Assembly (NCBI GenBank): GCA_000697455.1
Contig: JNET01028694.1
Coordinates: 1 to 20,816, forward strand
Length of the DNA: 20,816 bases
Direction of reading: 5' to 3'
Source: Basidiobolus heterosporus B8920
Lineage: Eukaryota; Basidiobolomycota; Basidiobolomycetes; Basidiobolales; Basidiobolaceae
Shown one piece after another: positions 1-19,732 of this stretch; position 1 is the first letter of the stretch, and every line of letters begins with the position of its first letter. The position numbers were made by a program, and so were the translations under genes. Below the pieces are notes generated by a model. That model had not been told where the DNA came from. It searched no databases and saw only the letters and a program-made list of their open reading frames with translations.

Positions 1-2103
1 AAAAAGAAGATATCCAAAAATGTCACACCCAAATCATCCAAAGCCCTGAAGACCTCTGAGCCATACCGTGAAAAGGAAAACATCGATCCACATTGTAACA
101 CTACAAATAGTCTTCCAGGTGTAAGTCTCGTAGATAACACTGGTGCTAGTACAGAAACGCCTCTGCGAGTAAAACCTTCAAAAACGATTTTCTCCTCAGG
201 TACTGCTAGAATATTGTTACCGTTTATTAGAAATAATAATGGATATACTCATTAGTATCTTAGAAAAAGACGAACCAAAAACCACGCCTATAAGTCATAC
301 TCGTAAAATTTCTGAACCCGTTGCTCCTGCTAGCTCAACTAATCAGGTGAGAATAACATTGAGTACAATTTCCGCTTTGCATGATGGCTTTTTGCCGATT
401 GGTGACAACAACCTTCTAATAGTATAGTACTCCAACCAATATTACTGTTGTAATACCTTTGATTCAACCTCAATCTAAGATTATGGTTGAAGTCGACTCT
501 CCTCCAAATAAGAATGCTTATCAGCAGATTGCCACTCATGTCAGCAAAGTCAAAAAATTGCTAACGAACCGTTTTTCGCTCAACATTGCTATTTCAATTT
601 CAATAGGCCTCGCCAACACCAACTAGCTCAAAACGTAAAAGAGAAAAATCTCGAAAAAATACGACAGTTGATCAGCCCTCTGGTTCTCCTGAAGAACTGA
701 TAGAGGTTGATGAATATTTTCAGTATTTTGATGTTTTAACGCTTATACTTTACTAATCCATCCATTGTATAGAAATGCGAAACTCTACCCAGAAAACGAA
801 GAAAATCCGATGTAACAGTAAGCAATGAGCTATGCGTTACGCCTTGTATGTCTAGAGCTCGCACAGAACCGGAGGTAAATAACACATGAATTGATATTCT
901 TTTACAATTTAGACCATTGCTAAATATGTATATATATATATATGTTCAATCTCGTAAGCAGAACTATCTTATCGGGGGTTCGAGCAGTTGTAACCGATGG
1001 AGTTGCTCACATTGTACATATCTTAACACGCCCAGAGCTAAGAAGTGCACAATGTGTTGTAAGCGTCGACTGCCTGCGGAAACGCTCAAAAGTATGGTAC
1101 CATCTCCAATAATGGCTGGTGATGGTGGTGTAAAGCATCCAGAACCGAGTTCCCCTGCGACGAATAACACAAAACCAAAATCAGTATCTAAAACAAGGCT
1201 GAACTTTGAAAACCAGATAGTCCCAAATCGTGGAAAAAACTACCTCGTACATGTCTTAACAACGGGACTAAAGGATTTACATTGGGTAAAACATTTATTT
1301 ATTCTAGCACTCGAACTTTACTTGATATGCGAGCTAAATCTCATGTAGCAAGAGCTTCAGCGTAGCTTAGATTTGTTACCTCAATCCGAACTGAAGCTAA
1401 CTATTGATGATGGGCATGGATTCGATGAAAATGTTACGCACGTAGTTACGATGGCTGATGAAAATTACATATGCCCAAGAACTTTTAAGTATCTGTGCGG
1501 CGTTTTAGTTGGAAAATGGCTTGTCAACTACAATTGTAAGAAATCACTTGGTCGTTTTTGCGTGTATTCGAATTACTGAAATCGATTCTCAGGGATTGTT
1601 GATAGCATCACCGCTAATGAATGGTTAAATGAACAGAGCTACGAGATTACTGGAGATACTGTAATGGGAGTTACTTTTGGGCCAAAAAGTGGGCGACGCT
1701 GCTCGAGAAAACAAGTCAGTATCACTTTGGTTTTTGAAATGTCCACTCTTCGAATGTCTAAATTATATGATTTTAGCTACCACGTTTGTTTAGCAACTGC
1801 AAATTTTATCTTCATGGAGATTTTAAGGTCCCCAGTAAAATTGACCTTCAGAAACTTATCAAACTCGGTGGCGCGAAGCTATTATCTAGAAAACCTTCAC
1901 AAAAGTATGCACTGCTGAACACTCAAGTTAAGGATATTGATACTAGCAAACCTATAATCATTTGTGATGCCAAATACCCACTCAATGAACGATCGAATTC
2001 GTGGCTTAAGGATTTTCAACTCTGTACTAGCACTTGGCTATTCAATTGCATCTCATGTTATAAATTATTAGATAGGGATTTGCCAGTTGATTGTGAGCAC
2101 TAG
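1..2103 (+). CDS. BARD1: BRCA1/BARD1-family protein, 3' part: RanBP2-type zinc finger plus tandem BRCT domains (5' end outside window)
   Basis: Proposed exons: <1-199, 264-346, 423-539, 607-705, 773-874, 962-1285, 1349-1535, 1593-1714, 1777-2103; phases close and give 519 visible residues ending at TAG. The first five exons encode a low-complexity, Ser/Thr/Pro-rich linker with basic NLS-like clusters (KRKREKSRK, PRKRRK). A RanBP2-type zinc finger follows (nt 991-1066): W-x-C-x2-C-x10-C-x2-C with the typical Asn (SCSHCTYLN...KKCTMC). BRCT1 (about 1231-1640) has the TTGL phosphate-binding turn, NVTHVV, RTFKYLCG and the signature Trp, which is assembled across the 1536-1592 intron. BRCT2 (1777-2091) starts LPRLFSNCKFYLHGDFK and contains GGAKLLSRKP, closely resembling animal BARD1. 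In animals and plants BRCA1-BARD1 is a nuclear RING E3 ligase in homologous recombination. No ankyrin repeats or plant-type EPHD finger are visible, and any RING would lie upstream of the window. BRCA1 versus BARD1 is not settled; BRCT2 favours BARD1. The 875-961 intron boundary is the least certain. Confidence 0.8.
991..1066 (+). other. RanBP2-type zinc finger inside the BARD1-like gene
   Basis: The four zinc-ligand cysteine codons are at 1004, 1013, 1046 and 1055, in the pattern C-x2-C-x10-C-x2-C, preceded by the conserved Trp and with Asn in the central turn (CTYLN). This is the standard RanBP2/NZF finger layout. Members of this family bind ubiquitin or single-stranded RNA; which applies here cannot be read from the sequence. 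Confidence 0.9.
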
Positions 2104-2727: not shown

Positions 2728-5700
2728 ATGCTATTTGAGTTTTCACAATCTAGTCAATCTTCAACAATATCCAATCTTAGTAATCACTCAAGTGAGTTGC
2801 CTCCACCTGTTAGATCACGTATACACTCTCTTCTATCCTTGCTCGACACCAGTAACTATACTCAAGTTTTTGCAGAACTCTCTTTGGTAAGTTTCCAGCT
2901 TTTTTTGACCATTCTTCCTTAATCTCTACTTACTAAATTGATTGAACACAGTATTTTAAAACATTTGGAAGAGAACCCTACGTACACTTTTTCCAATATT
3001 TGTTTGCCCATTTGCATAACAACAAGTCCCAAGCAGACCTATTTGTGAACAAGGAATCAGCTTGTCTTAAACTCTTAAGCGAACAACTCTCATCTGTACT
3101 AGAAACACCTACTCTTGTTGGTTCAATAACTGAAGCTGTTTATAGCCTTCCTCCCGAAGTCACTCTTGATATCCAAACACTTATCCCAAAACTTAAACTT
3201 AACGCCATCCAGTCGGCCGCTTTATCACTAGTCCTCGACTCTTCTGCCAAGACTTCGACAAGCGAGCCAAGTTAGTAGCCAGCATACTTGAACTCTGTGA
3301 TTTTTACTTACCTCTCTTGTTAGCAAACGCCTTTATTCAAAAACAACTAGAGGAACTAAATCATTTGAGCCCTTCCGAAATCCAAGGATCAGAAAACTCC
3401 TTGAAACTTGTATTTCACTCCCTCGCTCAACCGAACTTTAAATATTCGTTAAACCGTTCAACTTTCGACAAAATATCTCAAGCGTGTTTGGAACACGATA
3501 TAAATACTGCTAACATGTCGAGGTATAAAATTTCAGGACATATGATTAATTCTTGATTTTGATACTTATTGATTGCATTATAGCTCTCAAGAAAAACATT
3601 CCGCTCTTAGCCAGAAGATTAAGGACTTAGGCCCTTCATGCTGCAAGGACACGAACGAAGTGAAGACTCTTCTTAAAGATGTCGGTCTGGAAACTACCAC
3701 TTCAACTAATGTCATTAGTGAAGCTGATATCGCCAAAGCTCTGGGTGCGATGACGGGATATACTGCCCAAGGTTTACCGGTCACTGAGGATAATGAAGAG
3801 ATAGAGTGCCAATGGAACGTAGAAAGCTTCATTACTGTCCTGATGGAACTTCAACCTAATACCGATTGGCTTGTTGTCATCCAACAACTGGACCACGATG
3901 ATTTTTATGTTCCTAGTGTTGCCGGTCTTTCCGTTATCACTTCAGCGTACAAATGTGCGCTGAAGGGTAGTAGTCCTTTCCCATTAGATGTTCTATGGCA
4001 CCGTTGGAATAATACCAAGGGACAACTCAGCTTCTTGAGGCAAGCAATCCAGGCCCCTATCGAAGTCATTGACATCGCAGAGTTGGCTACCAAGAAAATT
4101 GTTGATCCCGAGGATGTCGCTTCCACGAATCCACAGTTTGCGAATATTGCTACAAGTTTATTTACACAACCTTGGAACAATCTGGACCTCATCCAAAACT
4201 TAATATTCATGTATGAAACCGAAGTTGGCGAAGACGTGAAATCTTTGTTCGAGAGAGGAACTAAGCAAACTCCAGAATTGATTCTTCTTGGATTAGCTCA
4301 ACTTCCAGAACCATGGAACCCGTTGCATCAAGAACTCGTGACAAAATTAGTTGCTGGCTTCCTATCGGGTCATATGAATTCGAATTTTGTTCTTTGGAGA
4401 CTTTGGAATATCAACAACTCGTTATTAATTCATGCAGCACTGGATATGTATCATAGTAACCCAACTCTTATTTCTCGAATTCTTGATGTTGCACAGGACA
4501 TCAAAATCTTGAAATCAATGCTCGAGGTTCAACCTTTCTTTTTTGCAATCGACCTAGCTGCTTTGGCATGTAGAAGAGAATACCTAAATCTTGAGAAGTG
4601 GCTTCAGGATTCTATTGCTACACATGGAGAGCCATTTCTTCGGGTATGCTTTGATTTCTTGACTCAGAAAATGGGATCTAGTGAACAAGTAAGCGGTGGA
4701 AATTCACAAACTGTCCCCTTGTCCTTGGAGGTAATCAGCATCTTTTTGAAAGTCCTTGGGGCTAGCGCTACGTCAACCGAGATGTCTGAGATGTTTAAAG
4801 AATTACAAACACTCTGTTTCAAGAAACACCCCGAACTTGCCAATATGGGAAGCAATGCTAATTCGACTACTGCTGCTGGTGAAGTAAGCTTTTCCACAGA
4901 TGTTGAAGAAGAAGCCAATATGTACTACGAAAAGATTTATAAGGAGGAACTATCCGTTGAAAGTATGATTGAACTTCTTCATCGCCTGAAAAACTCGAGG
5001 ATTGCCAGAGAAAGGGACGTCTTTGATTGTATGATGCATAACTTATTTGACGAGTTCAAATTCTTTCCCAAGTATCCTCCAAAGGAACTGTCCATTACAA
5101 GTAATTTGATTGGAAGCTTAATCCAACACCAACTCGTTTCCTATATACCGTTAGGAGTGGCACTTAAATGTGTCTTGGATGCTTTATGTGATGAAACTAG
5201 TGCCAAGATGTTCAACTTTGGTGTTCAAGCTTTGGTACAATTCAAAGCACGACTTATTGAATGGCCTCAGTATTGTTCGCATTTGCTACAGATCCCAAAG
5301 TTGCAACAGGCGCACCCTGAAATTACGCAATATATCAAGGCAAATTTGGGTCAAGTACCGAATACCGCGTTGCCTCAGGGGGCCGCAATTAACACTGTTA
5401 TTGAGCAGCCAATTACCGACAAGCCTCAAGTCAACAATGCCCCGGAGCCACCCAAAAACGAATCACTTCCCGCCTTTACTTCTCTGAATCTCGATCCTTT
5501 ATTCGCCTCTGGTGATAATAACGATAATGAGGTCCCGCCAGAATCGGCTCAAGATAAGATTTTGTTCATTATTAACAATGTAGCCCATAGCAATATGGAA
5601 ACTAAAGTCCAGGAAATGAAGGAGGTCCTCAAAGAGTCGGCCTTTCGTTGGTTTAGTCATTACTTAGTTGTTAAGCGTGCCAGTATTGAGCCCAATAATC

Positions 5701-8700
5701 ACCAATTATACCTCCAATTCCTCGACTCGTTGAAAAGCGATCTCCTATATCGCTATCTGCTGCATGAAACTTATGCCAACATCAAGGTGCTTCTGAACTC
5801 GGAAAAAACCGTTCAGTCTTCTTCCGAAAGATCTTTGCTCAAGAATCTAGGTTCCTGGCTTGGTGGCATGACTTTGGCTCGCAACAAGCCTATCAAGCAT
5901 AAGAATATCGCTTTTAAGGAGCTACTTGTTGAAGGTTATGACTCTAACCGCCTTATTGTAGCTATTCCATTTGTTTGCAAAGTGTTAGAACAATGCAGCA
6001 AAAGTCGTGTATTTAAGCCACCTAATCCTTGGCTTATTGCCATTATGAAGTTATTGGCTGAACTCTATCAGTTTGCCGATCTTAAGTTGAATCTCAAGTT
6101 TGAAATCGAAGTCTTATGCAAAAGTCTGAATCTCGACATCAAAGATATAGAGCCCACTACAATTCTTAAGGACCGTCCACCTAAAGATTTCGTTTCTCAG
6201 TCAAACGTGGTCAAGGAGATGGATAAATTATCAATAGATTATGATACATCTTCAAGAGCCCCTGCTCACCACCAAATGTTGGGCCAAGCTCAGCAAAATA
6301 ACTCTCAACGAATTCTGGCTATAGCGGATGATGCCCTTGGAGCTATCATTCCCACCATTGCTCCTTACATATCCGTCAACCCTAATCTGCCCCTCAATCA
6401 AGCCGTATTGAAGAGAGTAGTGCACATTGCTATGGATCAAGCATTACGTGAAACTGTCGGATCTACTGTGGAGAGATCAGTTAAGATTGCTCGATTCACC
6501 ACTCAGGAGCTTATTACTAAAGATTTCGCAATGGAGCCGAACGAAGAAAAGATGAGAAAGGCAGCTCATTTGATGGTTCAAAATCTTGCTGCTAGTTTAG
6601 CGGTTGCTGCTAGTAAAGACAATTTACGCAGTGGAATTGCCACTCATTTACGTAGCATGTTATTACAAAACGGCGTATCTGAACAAGCTTTCCCGGACCA
6701 AGCATTATCTATTACCGTCTCGGATAATCTGGATCTTGCCAGCTCCGTTGTCGAGAAAGTTGCTATGGAAGTGGCCATCCTTCAAATTGATGAAGGTCTT
6801 GCTAATTCGTATGCCAGCAGAAAGAAACATAGGGAATTCCGTACAGGACAGCCTTATTATGATGCTGCTGTAGTGTCTACCTTCCGCTATCCACCAAATC
6901 TTCCAGATGCTTTGCGACTAAAGCCAAATGGGCTTTTGCCACAGCAACTAGTTGTTTATGAGGATTTCGCTAGAATTCCACGATTCCAGAGTCAATTGGC
7001 TAATGTATACGACGAAAGAAGTCTCCGTACCTCTATGCCTGTTAAGGGAGATGTATATGGTTATGATGTAGCATACGAGAATGCGCCACCAACCATCAGT
7101 ACACATCAAGCATTGGAAAAGTTCTCACTGTTAGTGAACGAGCTTGACAAACAACTATCTCAGTGTACGGTTAATGGATTGGCCGCGATTCCTCAACAAC
7201 ACGATATTCGAGTTATTACTCATCAGATTCAGGCCCTCGCTACCCACTCAAGTAACAGAGATGAAACCACGCTGACATTTTCCCAGAAAGTTGTACAATC
7301 TCTTTATAAGAGTGATACCAATCTCGCTCGTGAAGTCTACGTTCACTTACTCGAAAGACTGTGTGATTTGTCTCCTTCAGTTGCCAAGGAGGTTACTGCT
7401 TGGTTGATTTATGCCGATGATGAAAGAAAGTACAATGTGCCTGTTACTGTTGCCTTGATTAAGGTCGGATTGATAAACCTTCCTGAACAAGACGCGCAAT
7501 TGGCCAAATTAATTGATGTCGGCCGGCCATCAGTTATCGATTTTGCAGTCAAGTTGATTGCTAAATGCGTTTTAGATGATTCTTGCGCTACTCATGTGGA
7601 TTTCAGCGCTTCGCTGGATGCACTTACTCGTCTTACCCAGAGAGGTAAAGGACCTAGCTCAGTCATTGATCTTCTTGAAGAGATACATAAACAGGGAACC
7701 TCTTCCCCTCAAGATACCGAAATCGCACAACTTCGTGAACAACTCACCTTTATGTTTATCGAATGGGTTAAGCTATACCAACATGTCTCCTCAAATGAAA
7801 AAGCATTTGCCACCTTTGCTCACCAGCTGCAACAACGCGGCGTGTTGAAGGATGAGGACGTTTCTTCACTTTTCTTCCGTGTATGTACCGAAATCAGTGT
7901 AGAAGGATTCTTGAAGTACAGCAGCACCGTCAGTGGTAATGGGCCGATACCCGCTGCAGCTTACCAAGGAGTTGACGCATTCTCAAAGCTAATTGTGGTT
8001 CTTGTAAAGTACTACAATGAGCCTACTCCTGTTAATCCCAATCTGGCGAAGATCACATTCCTATCGAAGATCCTAAGTATCATTCTTTTGGTTTTAGTTC
8101 ACGACCATCAACAACATAAGGGCCAATTCAACCAAAAGCCGTATCTTAGATTGTTCACTAACCTCTTGGGTGATTTCAATCTATACGAACAGCAATTACA
8201 GCCAATTTATTATAATATTCTGACTGCTCTTGCTAATACCTTCCATAGTTTGCAGCCTTCATTCTTGCCTGGATTCGCCTTTGCCTGGATTTCACTCATA
8301 TCCCACCGCTTGTTTATGCCTAAACTTTTACTGGCCGAAAACCAGAAGGGATGGCCAGCAATCCAACGTTTGATGATATGCTTGTTCAAGTTCATTGGCC
8401 CATTACTTGAAGACTTCGATCGTGAGAGCACCCGAGCTCTTTACAAAGGAACTATGCGAGTATTATTAGTGTTGCTTCACGACTTCCCCGAATTCTTGTG
8501 TGATTATCACTTCAGTTTCTGTGATGTGATTCCCCCTACTTGCATTCAAACTCGAAACGTGATCTTGAGTGCATTCCCTCGAAACATGCGCCTTCCAGAT
8601 CCTTTCACACCAAACTTGAAGGTAGACCTTCTACCCGAAATCAGCCAGTCTCCACATGTTTTGTCTGATTATTCTTCCAGCCTTTTGGCTGGAGACTTCA

Positions 8701-9272
8701 AACAAGATATTGATACCTATCTGAAGACCCGTGGACCAGTCTCTTTCCTCCTCGACCTTCGTAGTAGGCTAATTGCTGAGCAAGTCGAAGATAGTGAACT
8801 TACCGGAGTTAAGTACAACGTGCCAGTGATCAACTCTCTAGTTCTATATGTTGGTACTCAAGCGATTGCGCAACTGCAAAACAAGACCCACCAAGGGACA
8901 TCACCCATCACACATAGTGCTCCGATGGATATTTTCCAACAGCTCCTAATCGATCTTGATTCGGAAGGACGTTACTTGTTTTTAAGTGCAATCGCCAACC
9001 AGCTTCGCTACCCCAACAATCACACTCATTACTTTAGTTGCGTTTTACTTTATTTATTCGCCGAAGGTAGCCAAGAGTCTATCAAAGAACAAGTCACCCG
9101 AGTACTTTTGGAGCGTTTAATCGTTAATCGTCCCCATCCTTGGGGCCTGTTGATCACTTTTATCGAATTAATCAAGAACCCGCGTTACAATTTCTGGAGT
9201 CATTCGTTCACCCGCTGCGCGCCAGATATTGAGAGCTTGTTTGATTCAGTTGCACGTAGTATTAATGTATAG
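2728..9272 (+). CDS. NOT1: NOT1, scaffold subunit of the CCR4-NOT complex
   Basis: Exons 2728-2886, 2952-3270, 3324-3522 and 3584-9272 give 2121 residues, close to the usual size (yeast Not1 about 2108). Not1 is the large alpha-helical scaffold that holds the Ccr4/Caf1 deadenylases and the Not modules in mRNA decay and transcription control. The N-terminal HEAT region matches CNOT1 (for example SRILDVAQD, FAIDLAALACRREYL, HGEPFL). The MIF4G-like Caf1-binding domain is at about residues 668-800 (SVESMIELLHRLKNS, ERDVFDCMMHNLFDEF, PQYCSHL). The CAF40/CNOT9-binding region (DUF3819) is at about 1132-1253 (VERSVKIARFTTQELITKDF). The C-terminal Not1 domain is at about 1740-2117 (FAFAWISLISHRLFMPKLL). 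The start at 2728 is the first ATG after an in-frame stop at 2713, and exon 1 aligns with the CNOT1 N-terminus (NYTQVFAELS). The three introns (65, 53, 61 bp) are all near the start; the last exon is 5.7 kb. An apparent frame change near 3270 is explained by the 53-bp intron. Confidence 0.97.
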
Positions 9273-12128: not shown

Positions 12129-13346
12129 TTATTGCGTGAGTGCACAGGGAACCGCCAGCGCTAACAATTTATTTTCAATATTTTCTGCCTCGAGGCTGAG
12201 TCCAGTACCATCATACTCGGCCTTCCAGACTGGCAGCGAGGTGTATTGCGGCAGAAAGATTCTTCGGAATTTGTTTGTTCTATTTGAGATACTACAATGA
12301 CGCACTTGCCCGCTCATAAAGACGATACTACCCGGTTCTAAGTTGACAAACACCAAATTGGGGTATCTTGAGGTGTTAATACGGCGTGAGGAAATCTCAA
12401 ACGGAGGATCGTTAGGATATTTAGAAGCCATTTGGTGGTGATGTTTAGTAAATTCAGCGACTTCACTGGGAATTGAGAATGGCTGATCTGTGGCAGGATA
12501 CGGCTCAATACAAATAGTGCCGTTGGTCTTCATAGAAATCACAACTATTGATAAATAATGTACGCTTGGAATGCTACACTGAACTTAATACCTCATTGAC
12601 TGTGTCCAAGGTCACCCAGCATGTTACAGAAGGCGTTGAACGACATGCTTCAGGCATGTATTGGGAGTCCTATAGATTGTTCAGTCAAAGTGCCTAAGCG
12701 TCAAAACTCTGATGACAGGTAATACCTGATGCCATTCGAATTGGCCCCGTGAACCGGTGTTTGGCGGTTTGACAACGTACTGTTCGTTGCACTAACGAAA
12801 AGGTCGATTAGTAAGGTCAGCATAAATCAACAAGCAAAGTCCACTAACAAGATATAATCTATTAGCACCATCTACTCGGTGTGTAGGCAACAGCTGTCCA
12901 CATAAGCTAGGAATTGTTTTCAATATTATCGAGCTCACTCGCTCTGCGAGCTCAGCTCTCAAACTACTGTAAACCCTTGAGTCGGATTTGAACTTTCCAT
13001 TATCAACGGTATCAAAATAACCACAATTCCAAGGCTCTGAAGATTGGATGTGTTACCAAGGATCGAGGATTTTAGGTAGTACTGATAAACAAGGCGTTCT
13101 TACCTATGACACAACCGAGGTGATCCAGAAGATCTAATTCCAAGTATACATGATTTATCAACGTGTCACACTCTTCAGTTAACTCTTGTAAATCCTCTTT
13201 AGATAAACCTATGAATAGAGGTCTATTTAATTTCGGGATTCGCAAAAAAAAGCGAGTTGAATTCACTAACAGTCTTTTAGTATTAGATAACCGTTTTTAT
13301 GAAAACTTAGAGTTTGCTCTTCACTTAGCTGCAGTTGCTGCTTCAT
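12129..13346 (-). CDS. Phytanoyl-CoA dioxygenase (PhyH)-family Fe(II)/2-oxoglutarate oxygenase
   Basis: Six exons on the minus strand: 13346-13271, 13208-13104, 13036-12849, 12791-12726, 12669-12592 and 12527-12129. They give 303 residues, the usual size for the family. PhyH-family enzymes hydroxylate small substrates, using Fe(II), O2 and 2-oxoglutarate. The start reads MKQQLQLSEEQTLSFHKNGY, a typical PhyH opening, then a helix (SKEDLQELTEECDTLINHVY). The metal site looks complete: H144-x-D146 in EFEWHQDSQYM and the distal His248 in VFMSGQVRHCS; Arg259 in KFRRIFLPQY is the expected 2-oxoglutarate ligand. NEQYVVKPPNTGS and CWVTLDTVNE are also family-typical. The HxD motif is split by intron 4. 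Introns are 56-67 bp, and intron 3 contains TACTAAT, a classic branch site. The substrate is unknown: phytanoyl-CoA oxidation cannot be assumed because the family is broad, and I see no peroxisomal targeting signal (C-terminus ends CALTQ). Confidence 0.88.
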
Positions 13347-14843
13347 TCAAAATACGCTTTCGCTACAGAAATCTTTGGGAAACGCTTAAACACCTCATTA
13401 AATACCATAATTAATTAAATCAATCACTGATCTCAGATAATTTTATAAGCTGTCAAAGTATCCGGATATCGTATGGAAAGTAGCTGATGGATTGATAAGG
13501 CTAAGAGAAAGGTTACAAAGCGAGGCTAGATAACGTCATTGTGGTGCATATCTCCATCCATGGCTCATTCGACCAACATATAAGCACACGAGCGTTGCGT
13601 GCGGGCGTGTGGGTGTGTGGGATGCAACAACTAACTGCTAAGTAATCTATCAATTTAAGGAAATTCCTTATTACGACGATTCAACTTATACCCGAGCCCA
13701 AGCTAAAAATAAATCAACATCTGCAAATTCGCAGAGGCGAAGTACTCACTGACTGACTTAAAATGGGGATTGCTTGGCAGCGGAACATACATAATACACA
13801 TTAAAAAGGCGCACTAGTCGAAGTGTTAGGAAAAAGCTCGTTGTGGACTGGTTTAAAATTCATGCGGAATCGTGCACACCTGGCACCATATTGGGAAAGA
13901 AGGAAACGTTATGTAATGTCCGGCTGGTCGGATGATTCGTATTGCTGAATTGAATGTTATGCAGCTCAAGCCTGAGCAAGCAATTGCAGGAAAAAGCAGA
14001 TTAGCTCAGAGACGGGGTTGCCAACATGGCTCAGTACAATGTACGACGCTGTGGAGAATTGTGTTGACAATGTGCAAATAGAAACAATCCATTATCTGGC
14101 TCTGTGAAGAAATGGAAGTTTCGTTTTTCGTGCCGTTTCAGCCTCGAATTTGATGGATGTTTTTGGTTGTGTGAATTCATGTTATTTTATGTTATTTTTA
14201 TAATACCAAGTGACGTCTTAATTTTATCTTACGTCTTTTTTTCCTCAAAACAACGATCTGGCTGCCTCAATCGGCTCTGATCTATGATACACATGATTCA
14301 TCAGTTTGGATTTTTTAGCCGACATATCTTCAGACAGGCAATTATTTATTATCGGATTTGTGAGTGCGCATTAGAGATTATCGATGATTTTGATCTATTT
14401 TGAAAGATTCCCCCTGGAATGATTAGATGGGAAACTACCTTAGGAAGCGGTCAAGAAATTCCTCAGACTGGTCTCTTCTTTCAACTTTAACTCGAGTTTT
14501 CCACAGCTTTCCTCTTTACAGTTTACACTTTGTCGACGACCACAAGCTATACATACACCCTGTTGTAATTTATCAAATAGCTACTTTCATTCAGACTTTA
14601 TCAGCTGGACTTATTCCAAAGACTCTTTGAAGTTTCCTTGAAAGTGTTATTGCTGTATCATCAAGCTTCATCTAAGTCATACTTTTCTTGGATTTTGCAA
14701 ATATAAATACTCAACGGGACTGGTGAACTGAAATCCCAAGGTCTATAACAAGAATCTAAATAGCCCTTGAGCTCAAGGCATTTTTTCTTACTTTAATTGA
14801 AAAGACGGCTCTTCTCTACTCGGTCGAACTTGAACAGTAACAA
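13347..14843. other. 1.5-kb gene-free divergent upstream region (dioxygenase gene / RSP5)
   Basis: This is the longest noncoding stretch in the window. No frame is open for 60 codons except 14427-14630, which I read as leader sequence. Visible features are a G/T-rich patch (13596-13622), pyrimidine-rich tracts (about 14230-14250 and 14470-14530) and a TATA-like element (14702-14709). I found no tRNA-like or conserved coding segment. Promoters of both flanking genes and the RSP5 5' UTR should lie here. Confidence 0.6.
14702..14709 (+). promoter_or_regulatory. TATA-box candidate (TATAAATA) upstream of RSP5
   Basis: TATAAATA lies 135 nt before the RSP5 start codon in the correct orientation. 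It is a consensus match only; no transcription start is visible. Confidence 0.3.
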
Positions 14844-17909
<3,066 letters not shown>

Positions 17910-18652: not shown

Positions 18653-19732
18653 TTACTGTGAGCTAGGTGAGTCAGTAGCCCCAACTGGACCGACCTTCTG
18701 TGTTGAAGTCCAGGCAGTAGAGCACAATGGACAGACTTTTCGATCTGGTCTCGAGGAAAAGTACCTTTCGGCACAATGGAGGTGCAATCTGCCGCTACAA
18801 CTACCAACATGACATCGTTCACCCTTAGAGAGTACGAAAATGAGTAATTGGATATCGAAATATTGAGTAATATTGCGTAAATACCCGAGTAACGATATCC
18901 ATACACAATGTGCACTCCAAGATATACTCTTCGAATTCTTCTTTTAGATATGTCTGAAGCTCTAGAATCGATCGTTGTGTGAGATAGTACCGGCCATAGC
19001 TACAGAGGAGGATTAATACAGAGTGATATTTCAACCCTAATTCAAAACAATCCTCACCTAGTTTTTGAAATCCATTTGTCTTCAACAAATCTTTCCAATA
19101 GTTGTTCCGCAGCGTTTTTGGTAAAAACTGATTTGAGTTTACCAGCTTCACTCAATGCTAGCAAAGAGGAGACTGAATACGACTCGTCATCTGCGGTAAC
19201 AATCAATTCTATCTGTAGTGGTACAGAATTTATAGGTACTTCAGTAAAGAATATCTACATAATAACCGAGAAATAGAGGTTCAGCTTACAATACGGCGAA
19301 GATAAACTAGCTCTGCAGGTGTATAGTCGGTAGCCAGTTGTGCAATCTCATCACCGTTAGTATTAACCTCAAACAAGAAGCTATAATTAAGAAAGGGAAA
19401 AGTAGGACGCTGTGTTAACTTAAAGTGACATACCAGTGCTAACACAGGCTCTCCAGTTTCTTCATCGTGGGACTTGCGAAACTCCAAATCCAAAGAGTTT
19501 ATTCCTTCATTGATAGTGTTGATAAATTCACCAAACTGACTTTCGTCAAAGGGCTCTATCATTAAAGCAGGGTCACTATTTTGGAGATCGTTACTGCTAT
19601 CACAAGAAGTATACCTTGAGTTATCTCGCAAGCACGTCGAAGTATCCTGATCGCGTCAGACTCCTTGAGAAATCGCTGAACCAAGCTGGCTTGTAAAAAG
19701 TAACGATGTGTGTTGGTAAAGCCTTGAGTCAT
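18653..19732 (-). CDS. NSE1: NSE1, RING-like subunit of the SMC5/6 complex
   Basis: Six exons on the minus strand: 19732-19615, 19555-19434, 19367-19290, 19212-19058, 18999-18885 and 18823-18653. They give 252 residues (human NSMCE1 266). Nse1 pairs with Nse3 and Nse4 in the SMC5/6 genome-stability complex and carries ubiquitin-ligase activity through its variant RING. The start MTQGFTNTHRYFLQASLVQRFL is the expected first winged helix. Next come FGEFINTINEGINSLDLEF and ETGEPVLALVNTN, matching the human FINNINSVLESLYIEI and ALVN segments, then AAEQLLERFVEDKWI and RSILELQTYLKEEF. The zinc module has C187-x2-C190, C200-x4-C205, H210/H212-C213 and C227-P-L-C230. The second pair spacing (C-x4-C) is two residues longer than in human NSMCE1. 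Intron 2 (66 bp) is placed with the acceptor GAG at 19368; the closer TAG at 19381 breaks the frame. Confidence 0.93.

Follow-up and report, generated by a model that had tools for sequence, protein, structure and literature searches.

BRCA1 and BARD1 are often treated as a system of animals and plants, and a gene for a tandem BRCT protein at the edge of a contig from the fungus Basidiobolus heterosporus B8920 raises the question of whether a member of this pair is encoded there and, if so, which one. An earlier note on this DNA had proposed that the pair was present in the fungal ancestor and kept in this lineage, taking its absence from the standard yeasts and moulds as background. Absence from fungi as a whole would be too strong a background: a 2024 survey names BRCA1 among the expressed genes of the early-diverging fungi L. 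transversale, M. lusitanicus, and R. delemar (PMC11061109). According to a 2021 paper, fungal orthologs of BRCA1 are missing from the databases (PMC8483008). The survey is akin to the present case in placing BRCA1 in fungi and differs from it in that its available text contains no NZF zinc finger joined to BRCT repeats; the words BARD1 and BRCT have 0 occurrences each in its main text. Our literature search, which covered mainly openly available main texts, turned up neither a BARD1 described from a fungus nor an NZF-BRCT protein, no paper on BARD1 together with BRCT and a RanBP2-type zinc finger, and none on Basidiobolus together with BRCA1.

The BRCT gene and its fungal context

The window, that is, the whole stretch of DNA analyzed, is the entire contig C54 (20,816 bases) of a genome assembly of 8.14 Mb in 428 contigs. 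Its first 2103 bases carry, on the forward strand, the 3′ portion of a gene whose product ends in a tandem BRCT, modeled as nine exons separated by eight GT-AG introns of 57–87 bases and encoding 519 residues followed by a stop codon (Table 1). The contig starts inside this gene, and about 172 N-terminal residues are missing in comparison with P0121, one of two full-length orthologs. These orthologs, the unnamed proteins P0121 (685 aa) and P0122 (673 aa) from B. meristosporus and B. ranarum, respectively, were the only 2 of 1370 candidates found at E ≤ 1e-3; with a shorter query, the 319-aa C-terminal piece, 0 of 833 candidates passed E ≤ 1e-3 in a set limited by length. Because both orthologs align gap-free over all three splice junctions from the zinc finger to BRCT2, we consider the model secure from the zinc finger onward. 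The linker exons upstream of it are less certain, since just 10.3% of residues 1–165 are identical in all three species. The basic LPRKRRKS stretch in the fifth exon is a possible nuclear localization signal.

Table 1. Coordinates of the features recognized in the window.
Feature	Position	Strand	Basis or comment
Exon, 5′ end cut by contig edge; N-terminal linker	1..199	+	Exon model, ortholog alignment; boundaries less certain
Exon, linker	264..346	+	Splice sites GTACTG..TTAG picked by frame
Exon, linker	423..539	+	Preceding intron GTGAGA..TAG
Exon, linker	607..705	+	Exon model, ortholog alignment
Exon with basic LPRKRRKS stretch	773..874	+	LPRKRRKS invariant in three Basidiobolus proteins
Exon, NZF zinc finger and BRCT1 start	962..1285	+	Exon model, ortholog alignment
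NZF / RanBP2-type zinc finger WSCSHCTYLNTPRAKKCTMC	998..1057	+	W-x-C-x2-C-x10-C-x2-C pattern, PDB matches
BRCT1, split by introns 1286–1348 and 1536–1592; TG and TFK at what we take to be the phosphate-pocket places	1238..1621	+	Pfam, PDB, alignment
Exon between NZF/BRCT1-start exon and linker exon	1349–1535	+	Exon model
Intron, phase 1, inside BRCT1 Trp codon	1536..1592	+	Exon model, human intron comparison
Exon, BRCT1 end and inter-BRCT linker with WLNEQSYEITGD	1593..1714	+	PDB and ortholog alignment
Intron, phase 0, directly before LPRLF	1715..1776	+	Exon model
Last exon, whole BRCT2 and stop codon	1777..2103	+	PDB matches
CNOT1/NOT1 (CCR4-NOT scaffold)	3573–9272	+	Single 1899-aa open frame; 97% identical stretch is residues 1300–1890
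Phytanoyl-CoA dioxygenase-like match	12132–12584	-	Weak, below cut-off
Rsp5/NEDD4-like ubiquitin ligase	15297–16973	+	Three WW domains and HECT start
Nse1 (SMC5/6 complex)	19284–19655	-	PF07574, 1.2e-10; second repair gene on the contig

The description of the genome as fungal-looking was borne out. CNOT1, the next gene on the same contig, shares 97% identity across 591 aa with its counterparts in B. ranarum and B. meristosporus, the remaining matches reaching at most 71% identity (among the best 120 of 4396 matches). Contamination was rejected on this ground and because the two BRCT orthologs sit on contigs equal in length (260741 and 16553) to those of the two Basidiobolus CNOT1 matches. Two N-terminal matches to chitin synthase of the fungal type were present in the genome, which belongs to a genus placed by the NCBI taxonomy in a phylum of its own, Basidiobolomycota. 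An axonemal dynein marker gave no match in the genome, and the control genomes gave none either. When the missing 5′ part of the BRCT gene was sought, a DNA search of the genome returned the window alone, and the N-terminus of the B. ranarum ortholog used as a query found nothing. The assembly is therefore taken as partial, and absences from it carry little weight.

Family of the tandem BRCT

Pfam recognized BRCT_2 (1.5e-12) and BRCT (6.3e-11) in the modeled protein, and both repeats together with the linker between them lie in the last four exons, as the earlier note had announced. In a phmmer search of the PDB, the best 60 of 73 matches were headed by chains of BRCA1 (2e-19 to 3e-17, 73–66 bits) and BARD1 (1e-15 to 2e-13, 61–54 bits), all other BRCT families scoring at most 30 bits: a Trypanosoma KKT4 construct (3e-6), PTIP (1e-5), microcephalin (1.2e-3), TopBP1 (2.5e-3), and Brc1 (9e-3). 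For scale, a search with human BARD1 itself gives BRCA1 chains E-values of 1.2e-10 to 8.7e-7 (threshold 1e-5). Although BRCA1 scores above BARD1 with the whole query, the two halves of the tandem differ in this respect. BRCT1 and the linker score best with BRCA1, and the linker WLNEQSYEITGD aligns in the same search with human BRCA1 KMLNEHDFEVRGD, a resemblance that the earlier note had claimed. The BRCT2 exon alone gave 11 PDB matches at E ≤ 10, seven to BARD1 (8e-8 to 1.5e-5), three to REV1 (0.02), and one to PTIP (0.27), with no BRCA1 chain among the 11. Chains of 53BP1 or Crb2 appeared neither among the best 60 of the 73 whole-protein matches nor among these 11.

A chance BRCT resemblance was rejected on the PDB scores and the gap-free ortholog alignment. 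Judged by its scores, the tandem BRCT belongs to the BRCA1/BARD1 family ahead of all other BRCT families, and the assignment to this type and not to that of Rad9/Crb2 or Brc1 thus holds among the best 60 of the 73 matches. By eye, we also noticed a Crb2/53BP1-like gene elsewhere in the genome, with a Tudor-looking stretch and a BRCT (C174:9327-12353), and a TopBP1-like gene on C381. A yeast-type reader may coexist in this fungus with genes of the BRCA1/BARD1 type. That the window gene is itself a BRCT protein of the Rad9/Crb2/53BP1, Brc1, or MCPH1 type, as found in yeasts, is hardly credible: these are likewise tandem-BRCT proteins, but microcephalin, TopBP1, and Brc1 match it only at the E-values given above, no 53BP1 or Crb2 chain stands among the best 60 of 73, and the Crb2-like and TopBP1-like genes named by eye are separate from it.

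A BRCA1-like gene and the placing of the window gene

The partner search called for by the earlier note was made with the Pfam family zf-RING_6, which we take to be that of the BARD1-type RING. It pointed to three places in the genome, none above the family cut-off: a UHRF1-like RING on C39 and an RBBP6-like RING on C200, both named by eye, and C58:14807-14920. The first of these lies in a UHRF1-like stretch with SRA and RING (C39:27797-30961), as seen by eye and in a RING-family search. The third belongs to a gene that begins with MSLDQDTLPSQPALFDEEIPKTISGLLRRMAAELNCPICLGILRDPYSTQCNHLFCQECIHHSLQMNLATCPLCKTPITKRGL (exons 14618–14733 and 14803–15014) and whose RING finds four BRCA1 chains as its best PDB matches (8.9e-15 to 3.8e-14), followed by a RING2/BMI1 chimera (2e-11), among the best 60 of 215. 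It keeps CPLCKxxITKR, and the match to BRCA1 extends over both flanking stretches. About 1.1 kb downstream of the RING, BRCT repeats match BRCA1 (5.8e-18), BARD1 (4.5e-15), and then SLF1 (5.7e-6) among all 41 PDB matches, and carry GPKRARQS where human BRCA1 has GPKRARES (GPKRARxS kept). By eye, no S/T-G of a phosphate pocket is present at the start of BRCT1, and the reading frames disagree at this start, around positions 16000–16100 of the contig near runs of T and A, which reflects either an assembly error or a broken gene. With its splice sites predicted and one frame disagreement, the C58 gene is a candidate BRCA1-like gene with a C3HC4 RING and a tandem BRCT, so that the partner search did yield a BRCA1-like gene. 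The genome also holds a BRCA2 OB domain (C151, 9e-14), which fits a working recombination branch.

The window gene and the C58 gene have introns in common with each other and with their human relatives. We take codon 635 of human BARD1 to be the BRCT1 Trp and codon 667 to lie just before LPKLF, an assignment that rests on numbering the PDB chain so that it ends at residue 777. Window intron 1536–1592 and one C58 intron both split the BRCT1 Trp codon after its first base (phase 1). In human BRCA1, the last base of exon 18 is c.5152, within Trp1718 (r.5075_5152del, p.Asp1692_Trp1718delinsGly; PMC3519833); in human BARD1, exon 9 has c.1903, the first base of codon 635, as its last base, and exon 10 has c.2001 (PMC6877745). 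The Asp-to-Trp count in the PDB BRCA1 chain is 27 residues, as 1692–1718 requires. A phase 1 intron in the Trp codon is thus common to the window gene, the C58 gene, human BRCA1 (c.5152/5153), and, on the above codon assignment, human BARD1 (c.1903/1904). The second window intron, 1715–1776 (phase 0, before LPRLF), coincides with BARD1 c.2001 (before LPKLF), again on that codon assignment. C58 has an intron before EPRLF, in phase 0 if the donor is placed one base further. The nearest BRCA1 boundary, c.5277, lies three alignment columns away from window intron 1715–1776 (PMC3519833).

Under uniform placement, the probability that two of three introns coincide by chance is ~5e-5. As a control, eight other BRCT matches in the genome, read as open reading frames, show no intron at the Trp; one has Phe there, and three have the Trp in the next open reading frame. 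This control is incomplete and may miss other split BRCTs, since the same BRCT scan missed both the window gene and C58. The shared positions point to common descent, and since both introns also occur in human BARD1, they can predate the split between BRCA1 and BARD1.

This last point bears on a second reading of the gene, as a BRCA1-type paralog that arose by duplication within fungi and is not the counterpart of animal BARD1. Outside the orthologs, the window protein is most similar to C58 (36.8% identity), ahead of BARD1 (33.5%) and BRCA1 (31%); it has the same two introns as C58, and whole-query PDB scores favor BRCA1 over BARD1. The approximately unbiased test on a seven-sequence tree built from 164 alignment columns (WAG+G4) accepts the grouping of the window with C58 (p 0.27), as it does those with BARD1 (0.54) and with BRCA1 (0.55). 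We nevertheless hold a fungal duplication to be unlikely, as the BRCT2 exon matches BARD1 with no BRCA1 chain at E ≤ 10 and the two introns, being also those of human BARD1, need not mark a fungal pair. In the best unconstrained tree (LG+G4), it is C58, and not the window protein, that joins BARD1, with an ultrafast support of 48. The phylogeny that the earlier note had asked for accordingly accepts the BARD1, BRCA1, and C58 placements alike.

Basidiobolus lives in the guts of amphibians and reptiles, the premise for a third reading, in which the gene came from an animal host by ancient horizontal transfer. Introns at animal positions would agree with such an origin; it is, however, very improbable, given that the Basidiobolus proteins are only ~31–35% identical to BRCA1 and BARD1 chains, that the introns are short (57–87 bases), that BRCA1 is named in other early-diverging fungi (PMC11061109), and that in two further species the contigs with the orthologs match those with CNOT1 in length.

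We find BARD1-like to be the best name for the window gene, which is not proven to be BARD1; it is chosen because of the BRCT2 matches and because C58 is the better BRCA1 candidate in the genome. The gene resembles BARD1 in its tandem BRCT, the LPxLF start of BRCT2, two human BARD1 intron positions, and the company of a BRCA1-like gene in the genome. It differs from the RING-ankyrin-BRCT layout of animal BARD1 in that the ortholog models are without RING or ankyrin repeats and an NZF precedes the BRCTs. In plants, BARD1 has the layout RING-PHD-BRCT. The likeness to BRCA1 lies in BRCT1, the linker, and the Trp-codon intron, and a RING and BRCT of BRCA1 type occur in the separate C58 gene; the differences are that no RING is seen for the window gene and that its BRCT2 finds BARD1 chains but no BRCA1 chain.

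Zinc finger, RING, and proposed function

Upstream of the BRCTs, and unseen in the earlier note along with the truncation at the contig edge, residues 213–232 of the model (WSCSHCTYLNTPRAKKCTMC) show the pattern of an NZF and contain Thr-Tyr and Met. The pattern W-x-C-x2-C-x10-C-x2-C is present in all three Basidiobolus species, with Ile in place of Met in B. ranarum. Identity in the three species is 88.5% in residues 212–237, which hold the finger, and 78.6% in the 14 residues after them (238–251), against 9.5% in residues 191–211 and 24.1% in residues 252–280. Among the best 60 of 73 PDB matches, those to the finger are ZRANB1/TRABID (5.2e-5, the best), UBCE7-interacting protein (1.5e-4), NPL4 (1e-3), HOIL-1L (1.5e-3), YAF2 (3e-3), and Nup153, of the Ran-binding kind (0.02). 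The Pfam RanBP model stays below cut-off in all three proteins, PF00641 reaching E 0.018 in the genome scan. The NZF fingers of TRABID, NPL4, HOIL-1L, and TAB2 bind ubiquitin; the window finger shares their cysteine pattern with T-Y and M and differs from them in being joined to a tandem BRCT. Thr-Tyr and Met presumably occupy the ubiquitin-contact places, for which we take Thr-Phe and a hydrophobic residue to be the usual choice in ubiquitin-binding NZFs, Tyr thus standing here where Phe is usually found. From these residues, the finger probably binds ubiquitin.

An N-terminal RING, which the earlier note had suggested looking for, was not detected by Pfam in the full-length P0121 and P0122 models, the window gene's own 5′ end being missing. 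Only two (P0121) and three (P0122) cysteines precede the conserved PSVKVKYQRK, and Pfam scans of the window model and both orthologs contain no ankyrin repeats. The AlphaFold model of P0121, built on a two-row alignment, had a mean pLDDT of 29.4 and was left out of the analysis. All 23 places of RING families in the genome (19 + 4), some of them fragments, were examined by eye, and C58 alone resembled the BRCA1/BARD1 type; this survey is weak evidence since the genome is incomplete and only the best candidates were scored. In animals, the stretches flanking the BRCA1 RING pair with the RING of BARD1. That both are kept in C58 suggests that a RING-bearing partner is to be expected, and none was found.

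The gene could be an orthodox BARD1 whose RING lies in upstream exons missed by both gene models, pairing with BRCA1 in the usual heterodimer and carrying an NZF in addition. The flanks of the C58 RING, with their role in pairing, would agree with it, as would the predicted N-termini of P0121 and P0122, of unequal length ahead of the shared STNESKSQLLFA as if their starts had been guessed, and the cut on the 5′ side of the window. Set against these are the two models without a RING and, more weakly in an incomplete genome, the single BRCA1/BARD1-like RING among the 23 places, and we regard an overlooked RING as rather unlikely.

The reading that we prefer, and consider fairly probable, is that of a BARD1-like chromatin reader, combining a tandem BRCT with a ubiquitin-binding NZF and working with the BRCA1-like ligase of C58. 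The tandem BRCT, with its phosphate-pocket residues, would have phosphorylated repair proteins or damaged nucleosomes as its ligands, and ubiquitin, for example on H2A near a break, would be the ligand of the NZF directly ahead of it; the C58 protein would be the partner that supplies the E3 ligase, both proteins acting at breaks. More tentatively, and with somewhat less than even confidence, the RING may be truly absent from the BARD1-like subunit and the work divided by job: BRCA1 would keep its RING and write ubiquitin, and the BARD1-like protein, after losing both the RING and the ankyrin repeats and acquiring an NZF, would only read ubiquitin and phosphate. According to PMC10639053, the ankyrin and BRCT parts of human BARD1 recognize nucleosomes carrying H2AK15ub, and the H2A sites ubiquitylated by the RINGs of BRCA1-BARD1 are 125/127/129. 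The Basidiobolus genome encodes H2A on C171 in two copies ~0.9 kb apart with the same protein, in which Lys stands where human H2A has K15 (SKSRSSKAGLQF) and which ends in SQEL; PDB H2A chains that we take to be from yeast read SQSRSAKAGL, with Gln at the K15 place.

The proposal that the BRCA1-BARD1 pair was kept from the fungal ancestor gains from the fungal host, the BRCA1-like C58 gene, and the shared introns, and is held back by a tree that does not decide for BARD1 and by the lack of a RING among our finds. If the fungus does have BRCA1-like and BARD1-like genes with human intron positions, both would predate the divergence of fungi from animals, and their loss in yeasts could then be timed. 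The NZF-BRCT layout would be a natural experiment on which parts of BARD1 (RING, ankyrin repeats, BRCT) are needed and on whether a ubiquitin-binding finger can replace them.
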